From a virus: DNA of 35,846 bases. Below, piece after piece: positions 2,444 to 20,109 of this stretch. The position numbers were made by a program, and so were the translations under genes. The stretch lies in the IMG/VR virus record IMGVR_UViG_3300047666_000612, positions 1 through 35,846 of that record; one strand, given 5' to 3'. Positions within the stretch are counted from its first letter, which is position 1. Every line of letters starts with the position of its first letter. A model generated the notes under the pieces. It made no database searches. It was not told where the DNA came from and worked only from the letters and a program-made list of their open reading frames with translations.

Positions 2444-5400
2444 CTAAAATCCTTTTTTGCTTCCAAATCCCTTTTTGCTACCAAAACCTTTTTTGCTTCC
2501 AGAGCTTTTCGAACTAACTGTTCTTGTTGAAACTGTTTTTGGTTTTTTACTTTCTGCTTTTATCAAATCAAATTCTTCGTTCTTAGCTCCAACATTCCAT
2601 GTCCTCCAACCTAAACCTAATGCTATTCTTTGAAACACACTGTTCCTAGCATCTAGCATTTCAGCAACACCTTTTGCTTCTGCTAAAGCTCTATCTAAAG
2701 GTAAATTAAGAGCAGCGGATCCTACGTTGGCTAGTATACTGTATGTTGATGACGGATTAAATCTACCATCTATAGTAACCGACCAAGGGTGTTTTTCTAT
2801 AACAGCTTTGTCAAATTGATACGTTTGAATACCAGAATATACTTTTCTAAGTTTAGATCCAATAGCTGGCGATAAGTTTGCTAGCTCAAGAATTGTTTTT
2901 GTTTGATCCCCTATAAAACCTTTTTCATCTTCTTTTTTCCATATAGCGTATGAATTCTTTAATGTAGTAAAGATTGCTCCATATATACCAGTACCTCTTA
3001 CCACGGAATCAGACATCCCATTTAATATATCTGCAGCTTTTTTCTCTAAAGCAACTTCTTTTTTATCTTTGTCTTCTTCTTCATCCTCGTCAAACCCAGG
3101 TATTAATGCAAATGCCGTTTTTGAAAGTGCATTAAACAAAAAGTTTTGCACAGCTCCAAAATAAAGTATCTTTGATATATGTGTCTTTGCGTCTCCACGT
3201 CCATTTACAAGATCCTGACCAGACTTTTTCATCAATCTAGTGTATTGCATTGTTGTGTTCTGAAACGATAAGATAAGACGTCCCGCAACGCTTCGCTGTT
3301 GTTGAGATACCAATGCTGGATCACCTGACTGCTGAGCTTCATCTGATAGTTTACTAAAATCTTGAAAAGCTTTTGTTTCAGCATCTTTTAAATCCATTCC
3401 TTCTTTCGTATAGGTCTTAACCCGGTTACGATACATAGAAGCACCACCTAGTGAAATAGCAAAGCTATCCGCAATCTGTGTTGGCGTAAACCCTATCTTT
3501 AATATATAAGCTATAATAGCTTGAGCTTTGTCCTGAGAATTCTTAGCCGCATTAGCAATTTCCGCTTCTTGAACATCTGACTTTAAACCACCTCTACGTT
3601 GTTTTAATTTATTTGAGTTAAAAATCATTGCAAAATCTTTCCAGTACTGAGGTTGATTTGCAAAAGCCAATGCAGCTTTAGCTGGGTTATTATCAGACCA
3701 GTTTATAAAGTTGGCTGACGAAAGAGTCTGTAGTATAGCTGATCTTCTGTTGAAGAACATTATTGTACCAATAGAATTGTTAACCCAATTTGTCCATTTA
3801 CTTGTTATAGCATCACCGCCTTGATTTGAACTATTACTACCAGACTTCATTGCGGAAATAGCGTTTTCAATTGCTTTCCTTGAAGCTTCACCATACAATG
3901 CTTCAACTTTGTTTAAATTCTTTTCGCTAAATACGATATCAACGTTTTCAATAAACTCAGTTAAGTATTCTTTTCTATTTGTTTTTTCAGTTAAATTATT
4001 TAGATCGCTTAAAGTTGTTTGAGCCAACCAATGTTCTCCTGGTTCTGGCCATGAGTCTTTCTTAGATACTATTAATAATCCGTCTGCAAAACTGCTTAGT
4101 TCAGGATCATTGGCTACAATATCGTTTAATTTCTTGTTATCTCTTTTAGATAGACCTGGTATTTCATTGCCGGCCTTGTTCCACAAATATACTCTAACAG
4201 CAGCATCGTAAGTATATTGCTCACCTTTAATCAACTTGTTTAATTTTTTCTTAACAGGTTTAAACATGCTAAGTAAAGCTTTTGTGTCCTCTTTAATTGT
4301 CTGTCTTGCTGATTCTAATGCTGCAACACCTTGGAAATAAGGATCCATCAAACTTTCTTCAAAAAACTTTTGATCAGCTTCACCCTGCTTTCCTTTACCT
4401 GCAAATTTGTATTGAGTTAATCCTCTAAAATCTTCTGCTGAAGGAGATATAAAGAACTTCCATTTACCTGTTTTTTTACCTCTTCTTTTAGCTGTTGCTT
4501 TAGAGAATTCTTTGAACGACTCAACACCCTTCTGGCGCTGTATCATGTTATTAAACTTAGTATCTAAGCTTTGTGAAAATTTAACCTTAGCTAATTGAAC
4601 TTTGCCTTTAACATCGAAAGTATTTAAAGCGTTTTTAACCGCTTTAACATTTCCTGTATGATCATCAGCAAAATAGAAGTCATTGTAGCCATCAGCTACT
4701 TTACCTACAACCCAATCAGCTTTAGCTTTAGGTGTTCCGTTGCCTAATCCAGTAATATTTTCTAAAGGTATATCTAACCCTAGTTCACTAAGAAATTCTT
4801 GAATAGGACCAGCAGCATCAGCAGGCCTTGCTGTTAAAACAAACACATCTTTAGTTCCTCTTTTGTCTGCTATAATTTTAGCAACTTCAAACAAAGGTCC
4901 TTTTTTACCGTCCATTACTTTACTAAACTCAGAGAAATCCCATTGAGCACCCTCGGCTTCCATCTTACCTGCGTCTTTAGCAAAAGTAGCAGCGTCAATT
5001 TTGCCTTGTTCTTTTATAGATTTTTTATCAAAAACTACAATATTGTCAGTGTCTTTACCGCTTTTTAAATCTGAATCAGTAAATCTTGAAGCTTTAATTC
5101 CTTTACTTGCAAGAGCTTTTGTTAGCTTGTTTAAGTCTGATTTAGAAAATGATTGTTCAAACCTGTCGTCAATTAGTTCGTATAAACGAGAATCGTCTAC
5201 AGTCCAGCCTTCTGCTTTAGGTTGTATACCTAATTCTCTAATAACTTCAAAAACAGCTTTTTCCGACGCAATGTCGCTTTCATTTAAAGCAAATCCGTTT
5301 ACTTCCCCGTAATTTCCTTTAGCGTATTCACTCGCTTGAGACTTGTCTTGTGAAAAGTATGCAAAACTTCCGGTGATATTTTTAATAGATCTTATGCTGC

Positions 5401-8400
5401 CTCCGTGATAAATTGCTGTTTCTCCAGGCATTGTGTATAACACGCTGCTTTTAGTTTGAGCTAATGTATCATCAAAATCAAATACTCGTATTTTTTTAAT
5501 TGATTTAGACCATTTATTACTCCTAGCATTATTGATAGCCTTTTGCTCTGTTTTTACAGGAGCAAGGTTAGCTTTCATTTCTTGGTTTAATTGTGCGCCA
5601 AGGGCTCCAGCTGGGCTTAATAGCGTATTGGTTTTAGCATCATAAAAAGTTACTCCAGCTTTATTCATTTCCTGGATCATTTCCGCATACCTAGTTGTCA
5701 TAACGCCTGCTCCACGAATATAATTAAGACCCATAAGTGATTGCAGTTTATTTCTTACTAGGCCCTTGTCCATGCCCTCCGTAATAAAAGCTGTGTCAAA
5801 ATCAGAAAGCTCTTCTGTTAGAATATCCAAGTCTGCTTTTTTGCCGGTCATAGAATATATATAAGCTGCGATAGCTACTCTATTGGCAGGCTTAGTATGT
5901 TCAAACACACCTTTATCAACCTTTCCGTCTTTTCTTCCAAAACCAAGTTTTACTAAATCCTTTAGACTAAGCAGTGTGCCATCTAATCTAGCAGGCATCC
6001 ACCTAGGAGCTGAGGTAATTTTACCTAATCCATCCATTGCTGCAAAAGGAGATCTACTAAGAGTTCTTTGAGCCGCTGAGGATATATCTGCTTTGTTAAG
6101 CGCTTCTATAAATGTTATTAAGCTAGCCTGGTATTCTTTTTTACCTTCTTGTAATTCTTGTAAGTATGCTTTTTTACCCTCGTTATCTAACTTATTGTAC
6201 GCAGATTTATCTTTTGACCAGAAATTTTTAGTATAAGCGTCGGTCCTAGTGGACACTTTATCTCCCATTTCAATGCCTTTAAGGAAATTCTGTTCAAAAT
6301 CAGCTACACTAACCATAAAAGACCCTCTATCCTCAACTTGCGTAGTCGGCATTTCGGTTTCTTTGTCTTTTTTATAATTTACCTTGCCTAAATCGTCTTT
6401 TACTAAAACAATACTATTAGGGGTAGCTCTGGTTTTTCCGTCCTTATTTAGCTTGCCTTTAAAACCGCCTAGTCCACTAGGGCTATAAATAGCTACAAAT
6501 ATATTCTTGATTTCATTACCAGTGAAACCTTTAGCGGCCAGTACATCTACAACCTTTTTAGCTGCTTCTCTGCCTTCGTTTATTCCTAATAATGTTTTGG
6601 TGTCAAGCTTTATATCTACACCATCAATTATCTGTTGAGCGGTAGCGTAACTATTCCCCCTAGTAAGACCTTCTTTAGTGTTTTCTTGTATATACTTAAG
6701 CGTTTTAAGCACACCTTCAGCTTCTTGTACTCTTTTAATACCAATTTCTCCAAAAGGTTTAAATGTATAATCTTTACTTAGTTGAGCTGCTATTGTTTTT
6801 AAATCACCTATTTTAAGGCCTTCTATTCGAAATTCCTCAAAGTGAGCTACTAAAGAGGTGTAAAGAGGCCTTTCATTATTAGGATCGTTAGCATGCATGA
6901 AAAACCTATTTTTAAATTCTTCTGTATTTATGCCGTCTACAATGTCAGATACAACTTCTAGCTCTATTGCTTTTAAAGAAAACTTAACCGTACCTCTTTC
7001 AGCATCTCTAGATATTTGTTCTACAAAATTATCAACTAAAACTTCATTTAAAGCAGTTTGATTTTCTTTAAAAGCCCTACGCACGTCACTGTTTTCATTC
7101 GCAAGCTCTTTAGCTAGTACTTCAAAGCCAGCCTCTTCGGCTAACGCTTTTCCTAATGATTCTCTTTTACCTCGTATAACTTTTCCGTCGCTACCAACAA
7201 AATTTGCTACAAAGTCTTCATTGCTAATGCTATCTTCGAATTTACCTTCTTTATTTTCAACTTGTATCGCTCTCCTAACTATTTCGTTACCAGAGGTGCC
7301 TCCTTTTTTATTAGTGGAAACCTTTTCTCGATCAATTTTTTTACCTTTCCATTCTGAGTAAGGAACAAAATTTGGCTTAAAAATATCATTACCATTACTA
7401 TCTTTCTTTCTTTTACCGTCACTATCTAAAACGTAAGTTCCTCCTACAGATTTTTCTATAGCAGTAGGTATAGCTGTCTGTAAATAAGTGGTTGTCATGT
7501 TTTCAAGAATAGATTTTTTATTATCTATCAAGTAAGTTTGATATGAACCATCCTTAGGGTTACCCATTCTATCTATAAGCTGCTTAGGAAGAGCTTTTGG
7601 ATCTTTAACAACATTACCTATAGCTTTTTTAATTTCAGCTATTAGAGGCGTTGTTTGAGCGTTGGCTCCTTTAGGCCTAGTAGATAATTTTGAAGTTAAT
7701 TTTGAAGTTATATCAACAAGTTTTGTTTTTATTTCATTTACAACAAAGCTAGGAATCATCTTAGAATTGTTGATTAAAGAAGCGTAGGTTTTTCTGTTGT
7801 CTGCGGTTGGTCCAGAGCTTTCTTCGTTAGCTATACTTTGCGCTTGTTTGTTGTCAAGATCCGTTTGATTTTTTAGTTTTACCGCCGCTATAGCTAATTC
7901 TTTTTCTGCATCAAGTCTCCTAAACTGTATATTTGAAAACACCCACTCCCCAAAAGTAATAGGAACTTTGCTATCTGTTTTTCTTTTTGCTGCGGGATCG
8001 TAAGTTAACCACCCTCTACGTATTCTTTCTAAAGTTATTCGAAATTTATCCCCTCCACCTACTTTCTTTTTAATTTGAACATAAATAAGCCCGTTAGGCT
8101 TAAGAGCGTCATTAATAGCTTCACCAACTTCCTCATTTTCTTTTAGCTCTTTGTTGGTCTTAATTTCTTTAGGAACCAAAGCGTTTAATTGGCCTATAAC
8201 TTGGTCTTCACCAATATCGAATTCCGTTTTTTTCTTAGGTTTAGACGCTTCTTTCCTTTTAGCCGCTCTAATTTTAACCTCTAAATTAGATTTAGCAGCA
8301 TTAAAACTAGCATCGTCATAGTCAAAGTCGGCTTTATCTAAGCTATCAAGCTCGTTTTGAAGAGTGCTTACTTGTGATACAGAAAATTTTACTTTTGCAG

Positions 8401-11400
8401 CCTTAGGTGGTTTTCTAGATATTATAAATGTATTATTTTTATAAGCAAAACTACCTCCTATTTTGTCAGCTAACGCTTGCCCTAGTGTTTTATATAATCT
8501 AATTCTACTAGGCTCTTTAGCTGTAAATATAACGCCTTCTATTTTTTTCTTTTTAGCTAAGTAATCAACTAAACCATTACCAGCAACACTAAAAACTTCA
8601 AGAGCGTTTCCTGTGCCTGTAATGTCTTTACCAAGTTCTGCGTCTCCAAATTCATAATGGAAAAATCTTTCAGAGCTTTCAATACCATCACCGTCTTTAT
8701 CTTCAGATATACCTAGCTCTTTAGCTATGTCTTCTATATCCTGGTATGTTTTACCTTCATCAAACTCCATAAAAGCAGTTTCTTCTAGGGTCATTTTAAA
8801 ATCTCTTTCGCCAACTTTGAAGTTAGTTTCTATAGCATCATCTGTTTGCTTCCATTTCAAATCCTGTTTAGCATTAAGACTAAAGCTGGCTTTGTCTTTT
8901 CCTGATGCAGCATCTTTATCCCCTTTAGCAAAATCTTTTAATTTACCTTTAAAGCTACCTTTACTAAAAGCCTTATTGTAATCCACTATAAAGTTCTTTA
9001 CACCTTCGGCACTGTCAAATTTTATATTCTTTATACCTATGTTTTGAAATATTTGTCTAAAATAATCTCCAATTTTTGATATATTTGTTTTATTTAATTT
9101 TACATCTTTTCTGGTTATAGCTTCAGAAAACAAAGGTAGTATTTCTTCAAAGAAATCATTAACGCTTAAATCCCCTTCAAGCATCATTTTCCTGTAAGAC
9201 TTAATTCTAGCGTCAAGCTCACCTCCCCCTTGCTCGTTTTTAATCATGGATTCCACTTCATTTAAAAGCAATGATCCCGCATCTCTTATTAGTTCAGGTT
9301 TGGAATTTAAAGCCGCTTTTAAAACTTTATGTAAAAATTCATGCTGACCAGTTGTTACAAAGCTATCCTTTAAAGCAGATTGTTTATTTACTATAAGAAC
9401 TTCTTTACCGTCTGCGGTTGTAATAAATGTGCCGTAATTATTTTTACTTTCTTCGGCCCACTTTTCTATAGCTTCTGGCCCTTTGTCAGCTATATCACTG
9501 GGCGCATTTTTTATTAAAAAATCTTTCATTTTAACGTCAGCATCTCCATCTATGTCATCGTCAAATATTATTGTTTCATCAACTTTAATACCTGTAGAGT
9601 TTAATGATTTGCTAACATTATTTATATCTTTATCAAATTTATTAGCTATGTCCCTTTTAACTCCACTTGTTTCTATTTGAGAATCAATTAACTTAATTTT
9701 GTCATTGATAGCGGGATGAAAAGCCGTATCAGTTGTTTTCTTTTTAGAAATTAATTTTTGTTTTTTTAGTAATAAATCTATTTGATCAGATGTAACATTT
9801 TCTGGAGAAGAATCTATAGCTTTATGTATATCTAAAGCAAATTGTCTAGCTTCAGTTAATTGTTTTTTAATCTCAGGATCTTTAACTTTCTGAGCCATAG
9901 TAGTTAATTGAAGATCTACCGAGGCTATGTTTCCTTTTATCTGGTTGTATATAAGTTTTTTCTGGTTACTAAATGTTTTAGCTGATCCCGAAAGACCCAT
10001 ACCCCCACTAAGCATAATCGTACCGGCTATAAGTTCTATCTGGCTATTCATAAACTCACTAGCTTTAGGTAAAGCTATACCGTAAGCAGCGTTTGTTACA
10101 AGGTTTACCCCCGCGTTTAATTGCTCCTCGCTCATCTCCTTGCCTATATTAACTAGATACTGTTTACCGGCTGTTTTTAAACCTTCTTTTGTAGCTACTT
10201 TCTTTAAACTACCTACAAAAGCATCTTTTATAGCTTTTCCTTCAATACCTTTTAAAAATTGACTATCTGGCATAATCATTTGGACCATAGCTTCTGTAGA
10301 TGATTTAACAGTAGCATAAGAGCTAGCTTGAAGACCATTTAAACCGAGTTTCTCGCCTTCTTTTTGATTATCCATAATAGTAGCTCTAAAAGTAGCATCC
10401 ATCATTATGATATTATCTTTAAGCTTTTGCGAAGCGGGAGCCAGCACTTTTCCTTTTGCCCCTAGCTTCATGTACGTGTTGCCAACAGCTTCTTTTAAGC
10501 CTTTAAAGTTACCTTTTCTAACCTCACTTATTAAGTAAGCTGTGAAAGGAACCATAGATACACCTAGCTTAGCATAATTTCTAGCTTCAAAATCTTTAAA
10601 ACCACCTTCTTCTTTAGTTATATTAAACTTTTCGCTAGTTGAACTAGGTAAAAGAGTTTTATTACCCCATTGATCCACTACGTCGCTAAAAGCATCAAAT
10701 GATGAATAATTGTCTTGATCTTGAAAAGCATCACCAAAACTAGTTAAAGCCCAAGTAGTAGCTCCAACAGTACCTTTTTTAGCCATTTGATAAAGTCCTT
10801 GAACAAGACTACCTCCTGTTATGTCAGCGGTTGCATTCCAAAAGCCATCACCAGCGTATTTTTCTCTAAACTTTTCTGCATCGTCGGATAGTTTAAACTT
10901 GTTGTTTATAGTCCCAATAGCTAAATCAACACCATAGTCACCCTCAAAAGCTTTTAACGTAGAATCGTTAACAGACGCTTGCTTATTGTAATTAGAAATA
11001 ACAGATTTACCCTGCTCCTTCATGCCATTAAAGGTTTCAACAAGAGAATTATACTCATTTATTTGCTCTTTAGTAGCATTAGAGTTTTTATCAAAAGTCA
11101 TTTTACCATTAGTAAGATCACTTATTGATTTTTTAACAGCTTCCTGAGACTTATTTATAGACTCTATTTCTGCTTCAGCTATTGCTCTTGACTCTAAGTT
11201 TAAGTTTTTTATTTGCTCTATTTTCTTTTTTACTATAGGTATTTTAACTTCTTTTATTAAGTTTTCTTTTTCTTCTAGCGTATAAAAGCCTCCAGCTAGT
11301 TTTTGCAACTGCTTATTATCAAGCTTGCTTACAACAGCATTTTCAACACTTTTATTTAAAGATACTATCTCGCTAGCTTCTTGATTTTTATAATAACTTC

Positions 11401-12067
11401 TTCCTTTAAATAAATTTAATATACTAAATTCGCTAGCTAAATCATCTACACTATTTCCAGTTGCTTTATTATTACCGGTGTTTTTACTTAGTTGATGTAT
11501 TGCGTCGTTACGTAATTTAAACTCTGGATTATTTTCCATTATTTTAATTTCAGCAACACTAGCTTCGTCAAAAGAATCTAATTGATCTTTGACATATTCC
11601 ACGCTTTCTAAACCAGGCATATTATTGTAAGAATACAATGTTGCTTTGCTTTCTAGTTCTTCTCTATCTTTTTGGATTTGGGCTATTCTAGCTCTATTTT
11701 CGCTAAAAACTTTGTTATTATCAACTGGCATGAAATCAGCTACTATATTGGTAGCTTTATAATCATCATCAGTTAAATCCATTATAGAACCAGGCTTGTT
11801 ACCTGTTCTTTGCTCGTAGTTGAAACTAGCTTGCTCGTTTGACAGTGGCTCCGAAGAACCATTTTCCGATGCTAAATCCGTATCTACTGCTTTGTTTACC
11901 GCTGTTACAGGTGCAGTTTCCGTTGCAACAGCTTTTGTCTTTACTAGTTTTGTTTCTTCTGCTTCAATTAAAACAGCACCATCACCATGTTTTGAATTCA
12001 TGAAAGATTGTACATCCTCTTCTTTAACGGTTACTATTTTTCCGTTTTTTAATTTATAATCTGGCAT
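2444..12067 (-). CDS. giant (3207-residue) polyvalent virion protein with peptidase, GNAT-like, HAD and ART-like domains
   Basis: Probably an internal virion protein ejected into the host, in the position of T7 gp16. In order: a short N-terminal module (MPDYKLKNGKIVTV) seen at the start of other such phage giants; long helical regions to about residue 850; a zincin peptidase with HEFLH (His909, Glu910, His913) and a likely third ligand in NDFFEEILPLFSEA; a GNAT-like domain at about 1065-1222 (GTGNALEVFS, SRIRLYKTLGQAL); unassigned regions at 1230-2190; a HAD phosphatase with DFDDT (Asp2197/Asp2199), VLTARP (Thr2412) and ADD (Asp2468/Asp2469), interrupted at about 2217-2355 by an ART-like domain; then a long C-terminal region conserved, as I recall, in marine Bacteroidota phages (FNRRSAILQTLSSANFINWS) with one hydrophobic stretch (ISKILYFGAVQNFLFNAL). 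(V)KFS motifs mark module borders. It ends in three GSKKGF repeats. Catalytic activity of each domain is inferred. Confidence 0.85.
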   Translation of the reverse strand: MPDYKLKNGKIVTVKEEDVQSFMNSKHGDGAVLIEAEETKLVKTKAVATETAPVTAVNKAVDTDLASENGSSEPLSNEQASFNYEQRTGNKPGSIMDLTDDDYKATNIVADFMPVDNNKVFSENRARIAQIQKDREELESKATLYSYNNMPGLESVEYVKDQLDSFDEASVAEIKIMENNPEFKLRNDAIHQLSKNTGNNKATGNSVDDLASEFSILNLFKGRSYYKNQEASEIVSLNKSVENAVVSKLDNKQLQKLAGGFYTLEEKENLIKEVKIPIVKKKIEQIKNLNLESRAIAEAEIESINKSQEAVKKSISDLTNGKMTFDKNSNATKEQINEYNSLVETFNGMKEQGKSVISNYNKQASVNDSTLKAFEGDYGVDLAIGTINNKFKLSDDAEKFREKYAGDGFWNATADITGGSLVQGLYQMAKKGTVGATTWALTSFGDAFQDQDNYSSFDAFSDVVDQWGNKTLLPSSTSEKFNITKEEGGFKDFEARNYAKLGVSMVPFTAYLISEVRKGNFKGLKEAVGNTYMKLGAKGKVLAPASQKLKDNIIMMDATFRATIMDNQKEGEKLGLNGLQASSYATVKSSTEAMVQMIMPDSQFLKGIEGKAIKDAFVGSLKKVATKEGLKTAGKQYLVNIGKEMSEEQLNAGVNLVTNAAYGIALPKASEFMNSQIELIAGTIMLSGGMGLSGSAKTFSNQKKLIYNQIKGNIASVDLQLTTMAQKVKDPEIKKQLTEARQFALDIHKAIDSSPENVTSDQIDLLLKKQKLISKKKTTDTAFHPAINDKIKLIDSQIETSGVKRDIANKFDKDINNVSKSLNSTGIKVDETIIFDDDIDGDADVKMKDFLIKNAPSDIADKGPEAIEKWAEESKNNYGTFITTADGKEVLIVNKQSALKDSFVTTGQHEFLHKVLKAALNSKPELIRDAGSLLLNEVESMIKNEQGGGELDARIKSYRKMMLEGDLSVNDFFEEILPLFSEAITRKDVKLNKTNISKIGDYFRQIFQNIGIKNIKFDSAEGVKNFIVDYNKAFSKGSFKGKLKDFAKGDKDAASGKDKASFSLNAKQDLKWKQTDDAIETNFKVGERDFKMTLEETAFMEFDEGKTYQDIEDIAKELGISEDKDGDGIESSERFFHYEFGDAELGKDITGTGNALEVFSVAGNGLVDYLAKKKKIEGVIFTAKEPSRIRLYKTLGQALADKIGGSFAYKNNTFIISRKPPKAAKVKFSVSQVSTLQNELDSLDKADFDYDDASFNAAKSNLEVKIRAAKRKEASKPKKKTEFDIGEDQVIGQLNALVPKEIKTNKELKENEEVGEAINDALKPNGLIYVQIKKKVGGGDKFRITLERIRRGWLTYDPAAKRKTDSKVPITFGEWVFSNIQFRRLDAEKELAIAAVKLKNQTDLDNKQAQSIANEESSGPTADNRKTYASLINNSKMIPSFVVNEIKTKLVDITSKLTSKLSTRPKGANAQTTPLIAEIKKAIGNVVKDPKALPKQLIDRMGNPKDGSYQTYLIDNKKSILENMTTTYLQTAIPTAIEKSVGGTYVLDSDGKRKKDSNGNDIFKPNFVPYSEWKGKKIDREKVSTNKKGGTSGNEIVRRAIQVENKEGKFEDSISNEDFVANFVGSDGKVIRGKRESLGKALAEEAGFEVLAKELANENSDVRRAFKENQTALNEVLVDNFVEQISRDAERGTVKFSLKAIELEVVSDIVDGINTEEFKNRFFMHANDPNNERPLYTSLVAHFEEFRIEGLKIGDLKTIAAQLSKDYTFKPFGEIGIKRVQEAEGVLKTLKYIQENTKEGLTRGNSYATAQQIIDGVDIKLDTKTLLGINEGREAAKKVVDVLAAKGFTGNEIKNIFVAIYSPSGLGGFKGKLNKDGKTRATPNSIVLVKDDLGKVNYKKDKETEMPTTQVEDRGSFMVSVADFEQNFLKGIEMGDKVSTRTDAYTKNFWSKDKSAYNKLDNEGKKAYLQELQEGKKEYQASLITFIEALNKADISSAAQRTLSRSPFAAMDGLGKITSAPRWMPARLDGTLLSLKDLVKLGFGRKDGKVDKGVFEHTKPANRVAIAAYIYSMTGKKADLDILTEELSDFDTAFITEGMDKGLVRNKLQSLMGLNYIRGAGVMTTRYAEMIQEMNKAGVTFYDAKTNTLLSPAGALGAQLNQEMKANLAPVKTEQKAINNARSNKWSKSIKKIRVFDFDDTLAQTKSSVLYTMPGETAIYHGGSIRSIKNITGSFAYFSQDKSQASEYAKGNYGEVNGFALNESDIASEKAVFEVIRELGIQPKAEGWTVDDSRLYELIDDRFEQSFSKSDLNKLTKALASKGIKASRFTDSDLKSGKDTDNIVVFDKKSIKEQGKIDAATFAKDAGKMEAEGAQWDFSEFSKVMDGKKGPLFEVAKIIADKRGTKDVFVLTARPADAAGPIQEFLSELGLDIPLENITGLGNGTPKAKADWVVGKVADGYNDFYFADDHTGNVKAVKNALNTFDVKGKVQLAKVKFSQSLDTKFNNMIQRQKGVESFKEFSKATAKRRGKKTGKWKFFISPSAEDFRGLTQYKFAGKGKQGEADQKFFEESLMDPYFQGVAALESARQTIKEDTKALLSMFKPVKKKLNKLIKGEQYTYDAAVRVYLWNKAGNEIPGLSKRDNKKLNDIVANDPELSSFADGLLIVSKKDSWPEPGEHWLAQTTLSDLNNLTEKTNRKEYLTEFIENVDIVFSEKNLNKVEALYGEASRKAIENAISAMKSGSNSSNQGGDAITSKWTNWVNNSIGTIMFFNRRSAILQTLSSANFINWSDNNPAKAALAFANQPQYWKDFAMIFNSNKLKQRRGGLKSDVQEAEIANAAKNSQDKAQAIIAYILKIGFTPTQIADSFAISLGGASMYRNRVKTYTKEGMDLKDAETKAFQDFSKLSDEAQQSGDPALVSQQQRSVAGRLILSFQNTTMQYTRLMKKSGQDLVNGRGDAKTHISKILYFGAVQNFLFNALSKTAFALIPGFDEDEEEDKDKKEVALEKKAADILNGMSDSVVRGTGIYGAIFTTLKNSYAIWKKEDEKGFIGDQTKTILELANLSPAIGSKLRKVYSGIQTYQFDKAVIEKHPWSVTIDGRFNPSSTYSILANVGSAALNLPLDRALAEAKGVAEMLDARNSVFQRIALGLGWRTWNVGAKNEEFDLIKAESKKPKTVSTRTVSSKSSGSKKGFGSKKGFGSKKGF
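2447..2500 (-). repeat. three tandem 18-bp repeats encoding GSKKGF
   Basis: The last 18 codons before the stop of the giant protein are three copies of a near-identical 18-bp unit. The repeats give the protein a basic, glycine-rich, phenylalanine-punctuated tail and place A-rich AAAAAAGG tracts just upstream of the endolysin start. Repeat-number slippage here would change the tail by six residues without shifting frame. Confidence 0.95.
5003..5419 (-). other. ADP-ribosyltransferase-like domain inserted in a HAD phosphatase domain
   Basis: Within the giant protein, residues about 2217-2355 begin with AIYHGG (Tyr2220, His2221), continue with FAYFSQDKSQASEYAKG (Tyr2237, Tyr2248) and end with DNIVVFDKKSIK (Asn2342). 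This order matches the small ART-like domains of phage polyvalent proteins (YHG..., FF/YFS-x(5-8)-A-x-x-YA, D-x-I/VVF). It sits immediately after HAD motif I and its usual follower VLYTMPG, and before the HAD sequence resumes with AATFAKDAG and DFSEFSKV, i.e. at the C1-cap position. The third catalytic residue of an ART (normally Glu) is not clear, so activity is uncertain. Confidence 0.6.
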
Positions 12068-15846: not shown

Positions 15847-18800
15847 TTACTTTAAGTGAGCAGTTAGTTCCAATGGTTGCCTTTGATATAACTTATTGAG
15901 TTCCACATTGTCCCCTAAACCAGAAGCTATCAATCCACCTATAACGTAATTGTGTTCGCTGTCTTTTTTGTCTCCATCAATTTCTAGATTGTAAAAGTTT
16001 TTTACATATTCTTCAGATACCTTGCCTTGAGAAGCTAAAGAAACCCATTCGTCGTTTATAAATATAGGGTGATTTTGTTCTCCTGTTATTCCATTAATTT
16101 TAACAACTTTAGCGTCACTGTTAACTATATGTTTTAAAGCTTTTGTTACAACGCCCTTAACAATTAAACTATCTTTAAAAGATTTAACTTCATCACCAAC
16201 TTCTATAAGGTCAATGCTTTTAAAATGGCCGTCATACATTTCAACTTCGTCTCCTTCAATAAAGCAGCACGTGTTTCCTCCAGTTGGGTTTCCAGGAACA
16301 GTTGTTCCGTTTAGGTAACTTATTTGCCTATCGTCTCCACAACAAGCAGCACACCAAGTTTCAACAGCTGGGTTGCCGTTACAATCTGTATAACTAACAG
16401 AAGCACCACCGCCATATGTGTTGTTAGAGTATCTAGTTACGGTTATGCAACCGTCTTCTGTTAAAATTACATCAAAAGTACATATTGAAGTAGCTGGACC
16501 GGCATCTGACAACACCAAAGTAACAGTATATGTTCCAGCGGTATTAAAAGCGGCTGGCTTAGATACCACACAGCTAAAAGGAGTGTTAGGATCTGAAGCG
16601 TTCCAGTTAGTAGTTGTCTGTATAAAGGTTGGAGAAACAGCGGACCCGCTAGAATCTACTGTTGATATTGAGAAAGACAAGCCTTCGTATATACCTAAAT
16701 AGCTTCCTGTTGGAGTGTTTTGAGATATATTAGCGCCGTTTACTCCGTAAAAAGTACCAACAACAACATCTCCCGTTGTACCTTTGTTTATAGTGCCTGG
16801 ACAAGTGGTTGCCACCGGAGGGTTTGCGTTTGTAACATACGCTGGATTAACATTTCCAAGAGCTGCGTATTCTATTAGTTGAGCACTAAATTCCGCCCCA
16901 GCACTGTCTAACGTAACAACTGTGAAATAAAATATAAAGCTTTTATTTTGTATGCCGTTAATACCATAAACCCAGTCAAAATTATTACTTGAAGGGGCTA
17001 CCGTGTTAACTTTGTATGAACCATTCCCTTCGTCTGAAAGACTAAATCTTGGAGCTGCAACAGCAAAAACCTCTACAGGAGTACTTTCCAATGTTTTAAC
17101 GCTCGTTAAGGTAACGGAGCTTATAGATGCATAAGGTATTGTTGCGCCAGCAGCGTCTAATATAGTAAAACCCGCGGCTCCGGTTATTGATTGAGGATTT
17201 GATACGGCTTCCGTAAAAGTTCCAGTTGACCATCCACCAAGCGAACCAGCTCCGTTAGACTCATTTAGTATTAAAGTATTTAATTCACTAACTGATCCAG
17301 AGCTTGACGACTCCCAAAATATATCTAAATTTGACTCTACAGGCGTAGTTTCAAACACAGCTAAGCTAAATTCATTAGCATTTTGTGGCGTAAAAGTTAA
17401 AAGCGTATTGTCTGTAAGCGTTTGAGCTTTATTGACCACAACCGTACTACTACCATTATAACTAACAACTATTGTGTTTTCAGCAACGTCAGCTCCCCTA
17501 ACTATATCTCCTTGAGAAATAACCCCTTGTACATTGTCCACCGCTATAGTTATTGTTGTAACTGCGCCATTTGTTAAAGCGTTTGAAGAAGTTGTAACTA
17601 CACCAAACTTTTTTCTTGTAGATATTTTAGCTATTAAAGGGTTTGACTCTATTTCATAGAAATCGGTTGTAGCTATATATTGTAAATCCTCATCAGCGTT
17701 GAACAAGTCGTTGTTTGTAGCTATTGTAGACACTGTGCTAGAAAATCTACCTGGAAAATATTGTGAATTAGCAGTTGGTGCCGCGCTAGAATTGTTTTCT
17801 ACTCTACCAAACAACTGAACACTACTTCTAAATTGTTTTTGCTGTGGCCCTACTTCTGATAAATCTCTAGGCACTTTATTTATATTGTCATTTAAAAGAA
17901 CAGCAAAAGAAGTTTTTCCAAGTTCTAGCGTGTTGTCTCTAGGGTAAGCTGCAAGGACACCGGGTAAATATACATTGTAATATTCTTGTTCTGTTTGTTT
18001 AACCACAATCTTATAAGAATACCATCCTAAAGGATTGTAAAGAGAGCTAGTAGTATCTCCTTCATAAACCCCAGGTTCATTAGTATTTGTATTTGCTGTT
18101 TGCCCACTCAAAACGCTGTTAAACAAAACTTTCAACGAATCACCTGCCCAGTTATAAGAATCTGTACCACTGGCTCTATAGGGCGAGTATATAGTAGATC
18201 CTACATACTGCAGTCCACCTACGTTTATACTAGTTAAAGAGTTGGATAGTATTACACTAGAAGATCTTCCAAATTTATCTGAAAGAACAACGCCTACTTG
18301 ATAGTTTCTATTTTGCTTTAAAGAATGATTAGGGTACTCAGTAATACTTGTTGTATTTATTTCGTCACCAACAGGTTTAACCGTTAGCGTATAATTTGAT
18401 GCTGATAGTGTTTGTATTTTGTTTGTTTCTAACACAGACCCACTCCAAGAAACTATTTTCGATCCAGCAGCTATGGAAGCGCCTGTTAAATCTCCTCCAA
18501 TAATCACGTTTCCTGCAATTATAGTGGCATTTATGCTAGTAGTTCCATTTCCACCTAAATCAGTAACATTTAAAGTGCTTACGTTTAAATTGAAAGGGCT
18601 TTTTTCTGATATAAGTAAATTATAATCTAAAGAAGCCGGGGGGGTATGTTTATCTTGGAAATTACTATAAACTACCCTATTACTTATAATCTCTTGACCA
18701 AAAGCCTTTACAGGAACCTTATCGTATACTCTAATTAGCTCGTCTGCTGGAAGGGTTTTAAATGGTTTTTTTGATTGATAATTATAAATATAGCTATTGT

Positions 18801-20109
18801 TATCGCCAACAGTGTCGGCTTTTACGGCAACCATGTCTACAGTATCTATAACCTTAACCGCTAAAGCGTCTGATTCTTTGTAAAGTATATCTATAGAAAT
18901 AATTCTTAATGGGTTTATACCGGTAGCAGTAATTTCTCCTTTAGCAAAAGGAAGAGGTATTACTAGTAATGTTTTATTAACTTTGTTTTCCATGAATTCT
19001 ACTATAGTGCTTCTATAAGCGGCAGATTCATCATCAACGTCTATGTTAAAAGGATTTGGTATTGGTTGGTTATACATGAAGTACCCATCTTGCTTTGGTG
19101 TAAATGCTGTTTGCGTAAATGGCGAAAATATAGAATATTCACCATCTTCAAACTGAAACCTATAAGCGAATCTAACAAATTTATCTTCTAAAAAATTAGG
19201 ATCCCCGTTGTATGTTGGGTCAAAATATTTGTTGTAATTAAATATTAATTCTAAATTAGCTAATTGCCCTGTAAAAGGGCCTATTGAAGTGCTTGTTACA
19301 AGTTGAGTTGCATTTCCAGGATTGTAAGCGCTTACAATTGCGCCTGTGTTTACCAAAACCGGTGGATTTTGAGACACATCAACATAAGCTATACTAGCTC
19401 CAACCACTATATCTCCACTAACAGAGTTAGGAGGTACAGTAAAAAGAGTTGTAGCATTAGGAACTGAACCGGTAATATCACCTGTTCCTCCTCCTGGATA
19501 AAACTTACTAACAACATCGTACAATGTAGTTTCATAACTGCCAGGTGCTAAATCACTTTCTCTATAAAGTTCTATTGATTGATATGGATTGTACTTAGCT
19601 ACTGATATTTGATCTTCAATTGAGTAATATGTACTGCTTTCAAGAGCTCTACTTAAGTTTATTTTTCTAGGCTGATTTCTATTATCCGTCCAAAACAGTA
19701 AATTTTCTAAAACATTTATACCATATATCTTGTTCAATGTTGAGAAGTTTAAAAAAGCGCCTTGTACTAAAATACTTGAAGCGTTTGTTAAAGTGTTGTA
19801 GGCTATTATAAAATTCTTAGCATCCTTATCATAAGCTGCAACGGTATTATTTGTAAGAAAAACATACATAGTATCATTAAGCTCATTAGCTAAGCTGCCT
19901 ATGCTAGTTAACCCGTTTATTCCAGTAAGAGTAGAAAAGTTAACAACTAAACCGTTTCCTAGAGCATTTTCTAAAGAACCTACGCCTGCACCTTCTGATT
20001 TACTTACTTGAGTGTTTATAGCATTTCTGTACTCGCCCGAAGGCAACAGTCTAGCGTCCAAGTCTTTATTCATCTTGGACTTTATAAAAGCATTTTTAAC
20101 CTCTCCCAT
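15847..20109 (-). CDS. tail stabilisation protein (crAss-like), with C-terminal Hint domain
   Basis: Probably closes and stabilises the connector below the portal, comparable in place to P22 gp10. The N-terminal 400 residues contain features I associate with crAss-like stabilisation proteins: MYVFLTNNTVAAYDK, LFWTDNRNQPRKINL, AKYNPYQSIEL and RFAYRFQFEDGEYSIFSPF. Residues about 400-700 are beta-rich (FKTLPADELIRVYDKVPVKA, QEIISNRVVYSNFQ). Residues about 1130-1240 look Ig/PKD-like (AAFNTAGTYTVTLVLSD). A cysteine-rich linker then leads to a Hint domain from Cys1282 to the end. The gene starts 5 bases after the upstream connector gene. The large mid-protein insertions and the Hint domain are unusual for this family as I know it. 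Confidence 0.8.
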   Translation of the reverse strand: MGEVKNAFIKSKMNKDLDARLLPSGEYRNAINTQVSKSEGAGVGSLENALGNGLVVNFSTLTGINGLTSIGSLANELNDTMYVFLTNNTVAAYDKDAKNFIIAYNTLTNASSILVQGAFLNFSTLNKIYGINVLENLLFWTDNRNQPRKINLSRALESSTYYSIEDQISVAKYNPYQSIELYRESDLAPGSYETTLYDVVSKFYPGGGTGDITGSVPNATTLFTVPPNSVSGDIVVGASIAYVDVSQNPPVLVNTGAIVSAYNPGNATQLVTSTSIGPFTGQLANLELIFNYNKYFDPTYNGDPNFLEDKFVRFAYRFQFEDGEYSIFSPFTQTAFTPKQDGYFMYNQPIPNPFNIDVDDESAAYRSTIVEFMENKVNKTLLVIPLPFAKGEITATGINPLRIISIDILYKESDALAVKVIDTVDMVAVKADTVGDNNSYIYNYQSKKPFKTLPADELIRVYDKVPVKAFGQEIISNRVVYSNFQDKHTPPASLDYNLLISEKSPFNLNVSTLNVTDLGGNGTTSINATIIAGNVIIGGDLTGASIAAGSKIVSWSGSVLETNKIQTLSASNYTLTVKPVGDEINTTSITEYPNHSLKQNRNYQVGVVLSDKFGRSSSVILSNSLTSINVGGLQYVGSTIYSPYRASGTDSYNWAGDSLKVLFNSVLSGQTANTNTNEPGVYEGDTTSSLYNPLGWYSYKIVVKQTEQEYYNVYLPGVLAAYPRDNTLELGKTSFAVLLNDNINKVPRDLSEVGPQQKQFRSSVQLFGRVENNSSAAPTANSQYFPGRFSSTVSTIATNNDLFNADEDLQYIATTDFYEIESNPLIAKISTRKKFGVVTTSSNALTNGAVTTITIAVDNVQGVISQGDIVRGADVAENTIVVSYNGSSTVVVNKAQTLTDNTLLTFTPQNANEFSLAVFETTPVESNLDIFWESSSSGSVSELNTLILNESNGAGSLGGWSTGTFTEAVSNPQSITGAAGFTILDAAGATIPYASISSVTLTSVKTLESTPVEVFAVAAPRFSLSDEGNGSYKVNTVAPSSNNFDWVYGINGIQNKSFIFYFTVVTLDSAGAEFSAQLIEYAALGNVNPAYVTNANPPVATTCPGTINKGTTGDVVVGTFYGVNGANISQNTPTGSYLGIYEGLSFSISTVDSSGSAVSPTFIQTTTNWNASDPNTPFSCVVSKPAAFNTAGTYTVTLVLSDAGPATSICTFDVILTEDGCITVTRYSNNTYGGGASVSYTDCNGNPAVETWCAACCGDDRQISYLNGTTVPGNPTGGNTCCFIEGDEVEMYDGHFKSIDLIEVGDEVKSFKDSLIVKGVVTKALKHIVNSDAKVVKINGITGEQNHPIFINDEWVSLASQGKVSEEYVKNFYNLEIDGDKKDSEHNYVIGGLIASGLGDNVELNKLYQRQPLELTAHLK
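15850..16266 (-). other. Hint (hedgehog/intein-type) self-processing domain
   Basis: Residues 1282-1420 of the stabilisation protein begin CFIEGDEVEMYDG, continue with SIDLIEVGDEVKSF, and contain EQNHPIF (His1347) and NLEIDG followed by HNYVIGGLIASG. This is the order of Hint blocks A, B and F. The nucleophile would be Cys1282. There is no C-terminal extein and the intein-terminal His-Asn dipeptide is displaced (GGLIASG instead), so the domain fits N-terminal cleavage or hedgehog-type transfer better than splicing. Confidence 0.75.

Follow-up and report, generated by a model that had tools for sequence, protein, structure and literature searches.

An ADP-ribosyltransferase-like domain nested in the flap of a predicted HAD phosphatase, at a recurrent site of domain exchange in giant phage proteins

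The subject of this analysis is a giant open reading frame (ORF) on the minus strand of IMG/VR virus record IMGVR_UViG_3300047666_000612 (35,846 bases, hereafter the window, meaning the whole of this stretch of DNA). Within the encoded protein, a predicted HAD phosphatase is interrupted at its flap hairpin by a domain that is well supported as having the fold class of the ADP-ribosyltransferases (ARTs). Comparison with relatives reveals that the HAD flap is a recurrent swap site, which more often holds a polynucleotide-kinase-like domain than an ART.

Results

Organization of the interrupted HAD domain

The ORF, residue numbering and motifs given in an earlier note on this DNA agree with the sequence: D2197, D2199, T2201, YHGG at 2220, YFSQD at 2237, SEYA at 2246, NIVVFD at 2342, VLTARP at 2410 and YFADD at 2465. 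The N-terminal part of the HAD domain (residues 2190–2215, positions 5423–5500; this and all features below are on the minus strand) comprises strand 1, motif I (D2197-F-D2199-D-T2201) and the first flap strand, VLYT, as judged from the motif and from the strands of an AlphaFold2 (AF2) model. The C-terminal part (residues 2355–2490, positions 4598–5005), recognized by 85% DNA identity to the relatives L002–L004 and by its PHROG match, carries the second flap strand, the core and motifs II–IV, including VLTARP of motif II (residues 2410–2415, 4823–4840) and YFADD of motif IV (residues 2465–2469, 4661–4675). All the hallmarks of the fold (DxDx[TV] in motif I, Thr/Ser in motif II, Lys in motif III and an acidic motif IV) are shared by the window and almost all relatives, whether or not the flap carries an insert. 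Motif I and motif II were each present in 123 of the 123 HADs scored and motif IV in 122, and the motifs are intact in every class of occupancy. The HAD part matches phrog_415, a polynucleotide kinase family, with E-values of 7e-6 for the window and 3e-8 for L002; by this profile evidence, the HAD of the slot appears to be related to the phosphatase half of phage polynucleotide kinases.

The spacing between motif I and VLTARP is 78 residues in most relatives, and the window has an extra 135–140 residues between VLYTMPG and KIDAATFAK. The absence of the insert from homologues, raised as a check by the earlier note, was found in L002–L004, whose DNA is 83.3% identical to the window up to residue 2215 and 84.7% identical from residue 2355 onwards, and whose empty site is spanned by about four codons (DGTT), against 139 in the window. 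Because these relatives align on both sides with only some four codons between, the interruption is not an artefact of reading. The same alignment leaves the location of the insert as previously proposed and moves its edges by about one codon, to residues 2216–2354 rather than 2217–2355 (ART-PolyVal-like domain, positions 5006–5422). The nested arrangement also occurs in contigs from different metagenomes (L001/L092, L093, L094, L085–L091 and L114).

An AF2 model of residues 2178–2505, built with 52 homologous rows, has a mean predicted local distance difference test score (pLDDT) of 89.8 and a predicted template modelling score of 0.79. Strands 2192–2197, 2209–2212 and 2355–2357 belong to the HAD, giving a HAD fold with its flap after strand 1, and the latter two lie where the flap strands of a HAD are expected. 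The strands of the insert (2216–2223, 2236–2239, 2255–2262, 2326–2332 and 2339–2345) follow the first flap strand and precede the second, which bears out the proposed placement at the flap, or C1-cap, position. Across most of the insert the pLDDT is 89–97.

Identity of the insert

A Pfam scan of the whole 3207-residue protein reported neither a HAD nor an ART domain; when the segments were searched separately, matches were obtained. The insert matches the Pfam family ART-PolyVal (PF18760) with an E-value of 0.0043 and 18.3 bits, below the gathering cut-off of 31.2 bits. The best relative reaches 28.0 bits, and L082 has an E-value of 4.2e-6. ART-PolyVal is the sole recurrent Pfam family, listed for all ten relatives scanned (E-values from 4e-6 to 0.13, always below the cut-off). 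In Foldseek searches of the PDB, tankyrase-2 PARP domains (probability 0.77), KptA and a diphtheria-toxin chain (CRM197) were returned among HAD phosphatases, all with weak E-values. Among viral models, two proteins of uncultured viruses match the whole nested unit (E-values 2.5e-18 and 9.6e-15); further matches are to several proteins of the ART-PolyVal and 'large polyvalent' kinds. Direct sequence searches of the PDB with the ART or HAD profiles gave nothing useful. The ART-like character suggested by the earlier note is thus upheld by profile and fold matches alike; that note had named an ordinary HAD cap as the structure that would speak against it, and the model has an ART-type fold in this place, with Foldseek matches to ARTs. 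Independent loci share 65% identity with the insert, and this figure, the recurrence of ART-PolyVal in every relative scanned and the low ratio of nonsynonymous to synonymous substitutions given below indicate that the resemblance is more than chance.

The insert has three candidate ART residues: H2221 in strand 1 (5405–5407), Y2237 in strand 2 (5357–5359) and D2347 just after strand 5 (5027–5029). For the third, D2331 and D2341 are alternatives, the latter falling inside strand 5. This placement is compatible with the H-Y-D pattern described for the ARTs of polyvalent proteins (PMC5512222). The window keeps H2221, Y2237, Y2248 and D2347, and the triad is not fully conserved among relatives. 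The most conserved motif of this ART subfamily is LYELIDDRFE (5156–5185), in which YELIDxRFE is invariant. The ART is under purifying selection, with a ratio of nonsynonymous to synonymous substitution rates of 0.04–0.18. The insert may be an NAD+-dependent transferase. Further members of the ART subfamily lie elsewhere in giant proteins, outside the HAD slot (L095:5867–6244, L099:6001–6387 and L117:6001–6336); the nested form does not make up the whole subfamily.

The HAD flap as a swap site

Relatives of the region are encoded by 93 viral loci; L numbers designate individual loci of relatives. Profiles of the two HAD halves, of the ART and of the kinase served to score the state of the flap. 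Among 212 distinct HADs with an N-terminal part, the flap is empty in 150, holds a P-loop kinase in 51 and an ART in 11, in a sample in which the kinase and ART queries enrich those two states; a single HAD query alone gave an insert in 6 of 80 loci. No other type of insert was seen at the flap among the 212. A tree of the HAD C-terminal part only implies at least 14 changes among the three states, nine of which are forced by starred branches; the ART accounts for six of the changes, four of them forced. Moreover, the ARTs of L087 and L090 are identical at 125 of 132 positions (95%) and their HAD C-terminal parts at 76 of 130 (58%), from which it follows that the ART moves between HADs. Both types of cargo also occupy the same slot without a HAD, the ART in L082–L084, L096 and L097 and the kinase in L133 and L139–L141.

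The HAD C-terminal parts of L180 and L185 have very long branches. The same protein contains a kinase close by in each case, without ordinary nesting, and these are possibly rearranged versions. A genome scan returned 16 loci, mostly contigs of metagenome-assembled genomes of assorted phyla that resemble binned pieces of phage, and these were uninformative on the host.

Kinase-nested relatives

A kinase-in-HAD fusion is seen in L032–L034, L068, L118–L132 and others, and is commoner than the ART version. The nested kinase matches the AAA_33 and zeta-toxin families well above cut-off, and 31 of 46 nested kinases have a strict Walker A pattern. By profile, the nearest solved relatives are the kinase chains of C. 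thermocellum Pnkp (CthPnkp; entries labelled 'Metallophosphoesterase' in the profile file and 'polynucleotide kinase' in the fold search), ahead of zeta. The AF2 model of a kinase-nested relative is of medium quality (pLDDT 73, shallow alignment), so the fold search was backed by sequence profiles. Its best PDB matches in Foldseek are T4 PNKP (PDB code: 2ia5; E-value 2.8e-7), aligned over 350–375 columns, and the CthPnkp kinase (PDB code: 4gp7; E-value 5e-7). The kinase-nested relatives also match phrog_505 and phrog_415. A kinase of the T4/Cth Pnkp type and a HAD phosphatase are accordingly found in one chain in these relatives and not in the window, and sequence and model together make it plausible that the kinase version is a polynucleotide kinase/phosphatase with an unusual topology.

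The giant protein and its gene context

The giant ORF (2444–12067, 3207 amino acids) is the last gene of a head/tail block on the minus strand and encodes a multidomain protein of apparently polyvalent type, a description based on the ORF itself, the PHROG context and the position of a counterpart in Flavobacterium phage elemoA_7-9C. It closes a block that includes, by PHROG matches, a terminase, a portal, several 'virion structural protein' families, a holin and a GroES-like gene. The portal is 42–50% identical to those of Flavobacterium elemo phages, Maribacter phage Panino and one uncultured podovirus. We read the window phage as probably a marine podovirus of the Flavobacteriia type, its portal having its closest counterparts in Flavobacterium and Cellulophaga phages. 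At the equivalent place, elemoA_7-9C has a 3668-residue gene annotated as a structural protein, and MW202828 has a giant gene of similar size. Sequence similarity between the window giant and these two was undetectable, and we therefore infer its membership of the virion from gene position. A search of INPHARED likewise brought up no sequence relatives, whether of the giant protein or of its nested unit. Synteny, size and analogy to polyvalent proteins suggest that the giant protein rides in the virion and is ejected into the host.

A zincin-type HEFLH motif is found at residues 909–913 (9329–9343). Of 145 distinct giant relatives, 137 have an HExxH between residues 300 and 1500, where shuffled sequences would lead one to expect 0.5; the region gave no Pfam match, including none to a Pfam metallopeptidase family. 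No domain is commoner in polyvalent proteins than the zincin metallopeptidase (PMC5512222). Such proteins are giant, have several catalytic domains and often include a peptidase of this type; the window protein combines 3207 residues with a HAD, an ART-like domain and HExxH.

Directly after the HAD lies a KVKFSQ motif (residues 2494–2499, 4571–4588), and motifs of this type also follow ART-only and kinase-only slots. The pattern KFS[KRQL] is enriched about fivefold over shuffled giant proteins, a figure in which homologous copies are not independent. K-F-S-[KQLV]-type motifs recur at module edges of the giant ORF, at residues ~1062, 1228, 1696, 2186 and 2497 (for example 6974–6988 and 4571–4588). 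Blocks of DNA similarity between relatives begin or end near the motif, with residues 1658–1698 and 2170 onwards shared and 1698–2170 swapped. It is possible that the motif marks a recombination edge, or a processing site for the built-in metallopeptidase. Another predicted structural protein, of 1420 residues (15847–20109), has a C-terminal Vint/Hint (intein-like) domain at residues ~1282–1403, above the Pfam cut-off.

Discussion

The explanation that we favour, with a probability of roughly 0.6, is that the giant protein is a polyvalent effector with a site for exchangeable cargo, whose ART and HAD act independently after entry. One slot of the effector would hold a HAD phosphatase, and the flap hairpin, where C1 caps grow, would be a recurrent landing site for nothing (the commonest state), for a polynucleotide-kinase-like P-loop kinase or for an ART-PolyVal-like domain. 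The flap would lend itself to this use because it can take a whole domain with closely spaced ends while leaving the phosphatase unbroken. The giant protein would enter the host together with the phage DNA; there the ART would modify a host macromolecule with ADP-ribose, as T4 Alt does, and the complete HAD would independently strip terminal phosphates. The HAD can take a domain into its flap, and both ART and kinase also occur where there is no HAD; this favours independent activities over an obligatory ART/HAD reaction.

Several observations weigh against this explanation. Neither the window (18.3 bits) nor the best relative (28.0 bits) reaches the PF18760 cut-off, and the PDB Foldseek E-values for the nested unit are above 0.03. 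The Tyr is replaced by Phe in the L001 group and the His by Ala in L096 and L097, and N2342 stands at what we take, from our own reading of the PARP motif, to be the position of the PARP Glu. Finally, the giant protein is without a sequence match in cultured phages, and its ejection is argued from synteny, size and polyvalent analogy.

Some of these points could also mean that the domain is no longer a transferase: it would then be a decoy, or a cap that binds nucleotides or protein and modulates the HAD. The asparagine at the presumed PARP Glu position and the two substitutions would fit such a loss, as would conservation that is strongest in YELIDxRFE and not in the triad. However, the window retains H2221, Y2237, Y2248 and D2347, compatible with the H-Y-D pattern, and the ART also lives without a HAD, so we regard this reading as improbable. 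Far less credible still are two other readings of the insert, an ordinary HAD cap specific to one lineage and a chimera created in assembly. Caps at the flap position are common in HADs, but relatives of 83–85% identity have empty sites, the domain has an ART fold and profile, and it occurs alone and in other proteins; the several independent contigs with the nested arrangement rule out a chimera, and the empty sites, fold and profile rule out the cap.

A different possibility is that the two domains are coupled as a nucleic-acid end enzyme, in which the nested domain would close over the HAD active site as a functional cap. The kinase form would then be a polynucleotide 5'-kinase/3'-phosphatase of nested topology; the ART form would ADP-ribosylate or de-phosphorylate RNA or DNA ends that are substrates of the HAD too, for example undoing host tRNA or DNA cleavage on entry. 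The phrog_415 match of the HAD points in this direction, as do the alignment of the kinase-nested model with T4 PNKP and the CthPnkp kinase, in the same order by sequence profile, and an insertion point that coincides with the position of substrate-choosing HAD caps. KptA-type ARTs, which act on RNA 2'-phosphates, are also among the Foldseek matches. These matches are weak, however, and the window domain has H-Y residues rather than what we understand to be the KptA set. ART and kinase each occupy the slot without a HAD, most HADs are found without an insert, and the occurrence of the ART without a HAD, together with the His and Tyr losses in relatives, argues against an obligatory coupled chemistry. 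We consider such coupling unlikely, if clearly less so than a domain that has lost transferase function. Since the kinase version is a plausible PNKP, an ART version acting on nucleic-acid ends is nonetheless conceivable, and we tentatively suggest that the flap may be an enzyme-in-enzyme exchange site, at which replacing kinase by ART would switch an injected nucleic-acid-end enzyme from end repair to end ADP-ribosylation at entry.

The favoured explanation, independent cargo in a polyvalent effector, can be set against known systems. The window ART shares with the ART-PolyVal domains of polyvalent proteins (Iyer et al. 2017, PMC5512222) the fold class and the profile match, and its candidate His in strand 1, Tyr in strand 2 and Asp at strand 5 are compatible with theirs; the proteins share a giant multidomain build with a zincin metallopeptidase signature. 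It differs in falling below the Pfam cut-off, in its own YELIDxRFE motif and in being enclosed by a second catalytic domain. ARTs and zeta-type kinases are listed in the main text of the 2017 survey, where HAD phosphatases go unmentioned (PMC5512222). T4 Alt and other head-packaged ARTs resemble the window protein as ARTs predicted to be carried in the virion and to act at entry, but Alt belongs to the R-S-E clade and is not nested (PMC5512222). With T4 PseT and bacterial Pnkp, the window shares a phrog_415-type HAD, to which its relatives add a T4/CthPnkp-type kinase in the same polypeptide; in PseT and Pnkp the kinase stands in front of the HAD, whereas in the relatives it lies inside the flap and in the window an ART takes its place. 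In HAD C1-cap phosphatases the insertion likewise falls between the two flap strands, but the C1 caps described so far are lids, small helical bundles among them, and the window insert has an enzyme fold of its own and is exchanged for a different enzyme.

Literature searches of the open library on the combination of ART and HAD in virion proteins turned up no description of nesting, in a collection outside which most subscription papers lie, so that an earlier report is possible. Polyvalent ARTs, HAD phosphatases and polynucleotide-kinase-type kinases are known separately; what the searchable papers do not describe is a catalytic fold in the cap site of another, swapped many times among close relatives. 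Phage effector domains are thus exchanged below the level of the gene. The series of empty, ART-bearing and kinase-bearing forms, nested and alone, offers material for testing whole enzymes as HAD caps, and for testing what phages bring along to survive entry. The HAD flap loop looks like a natural swap site for the tools that a phage brings into its host.

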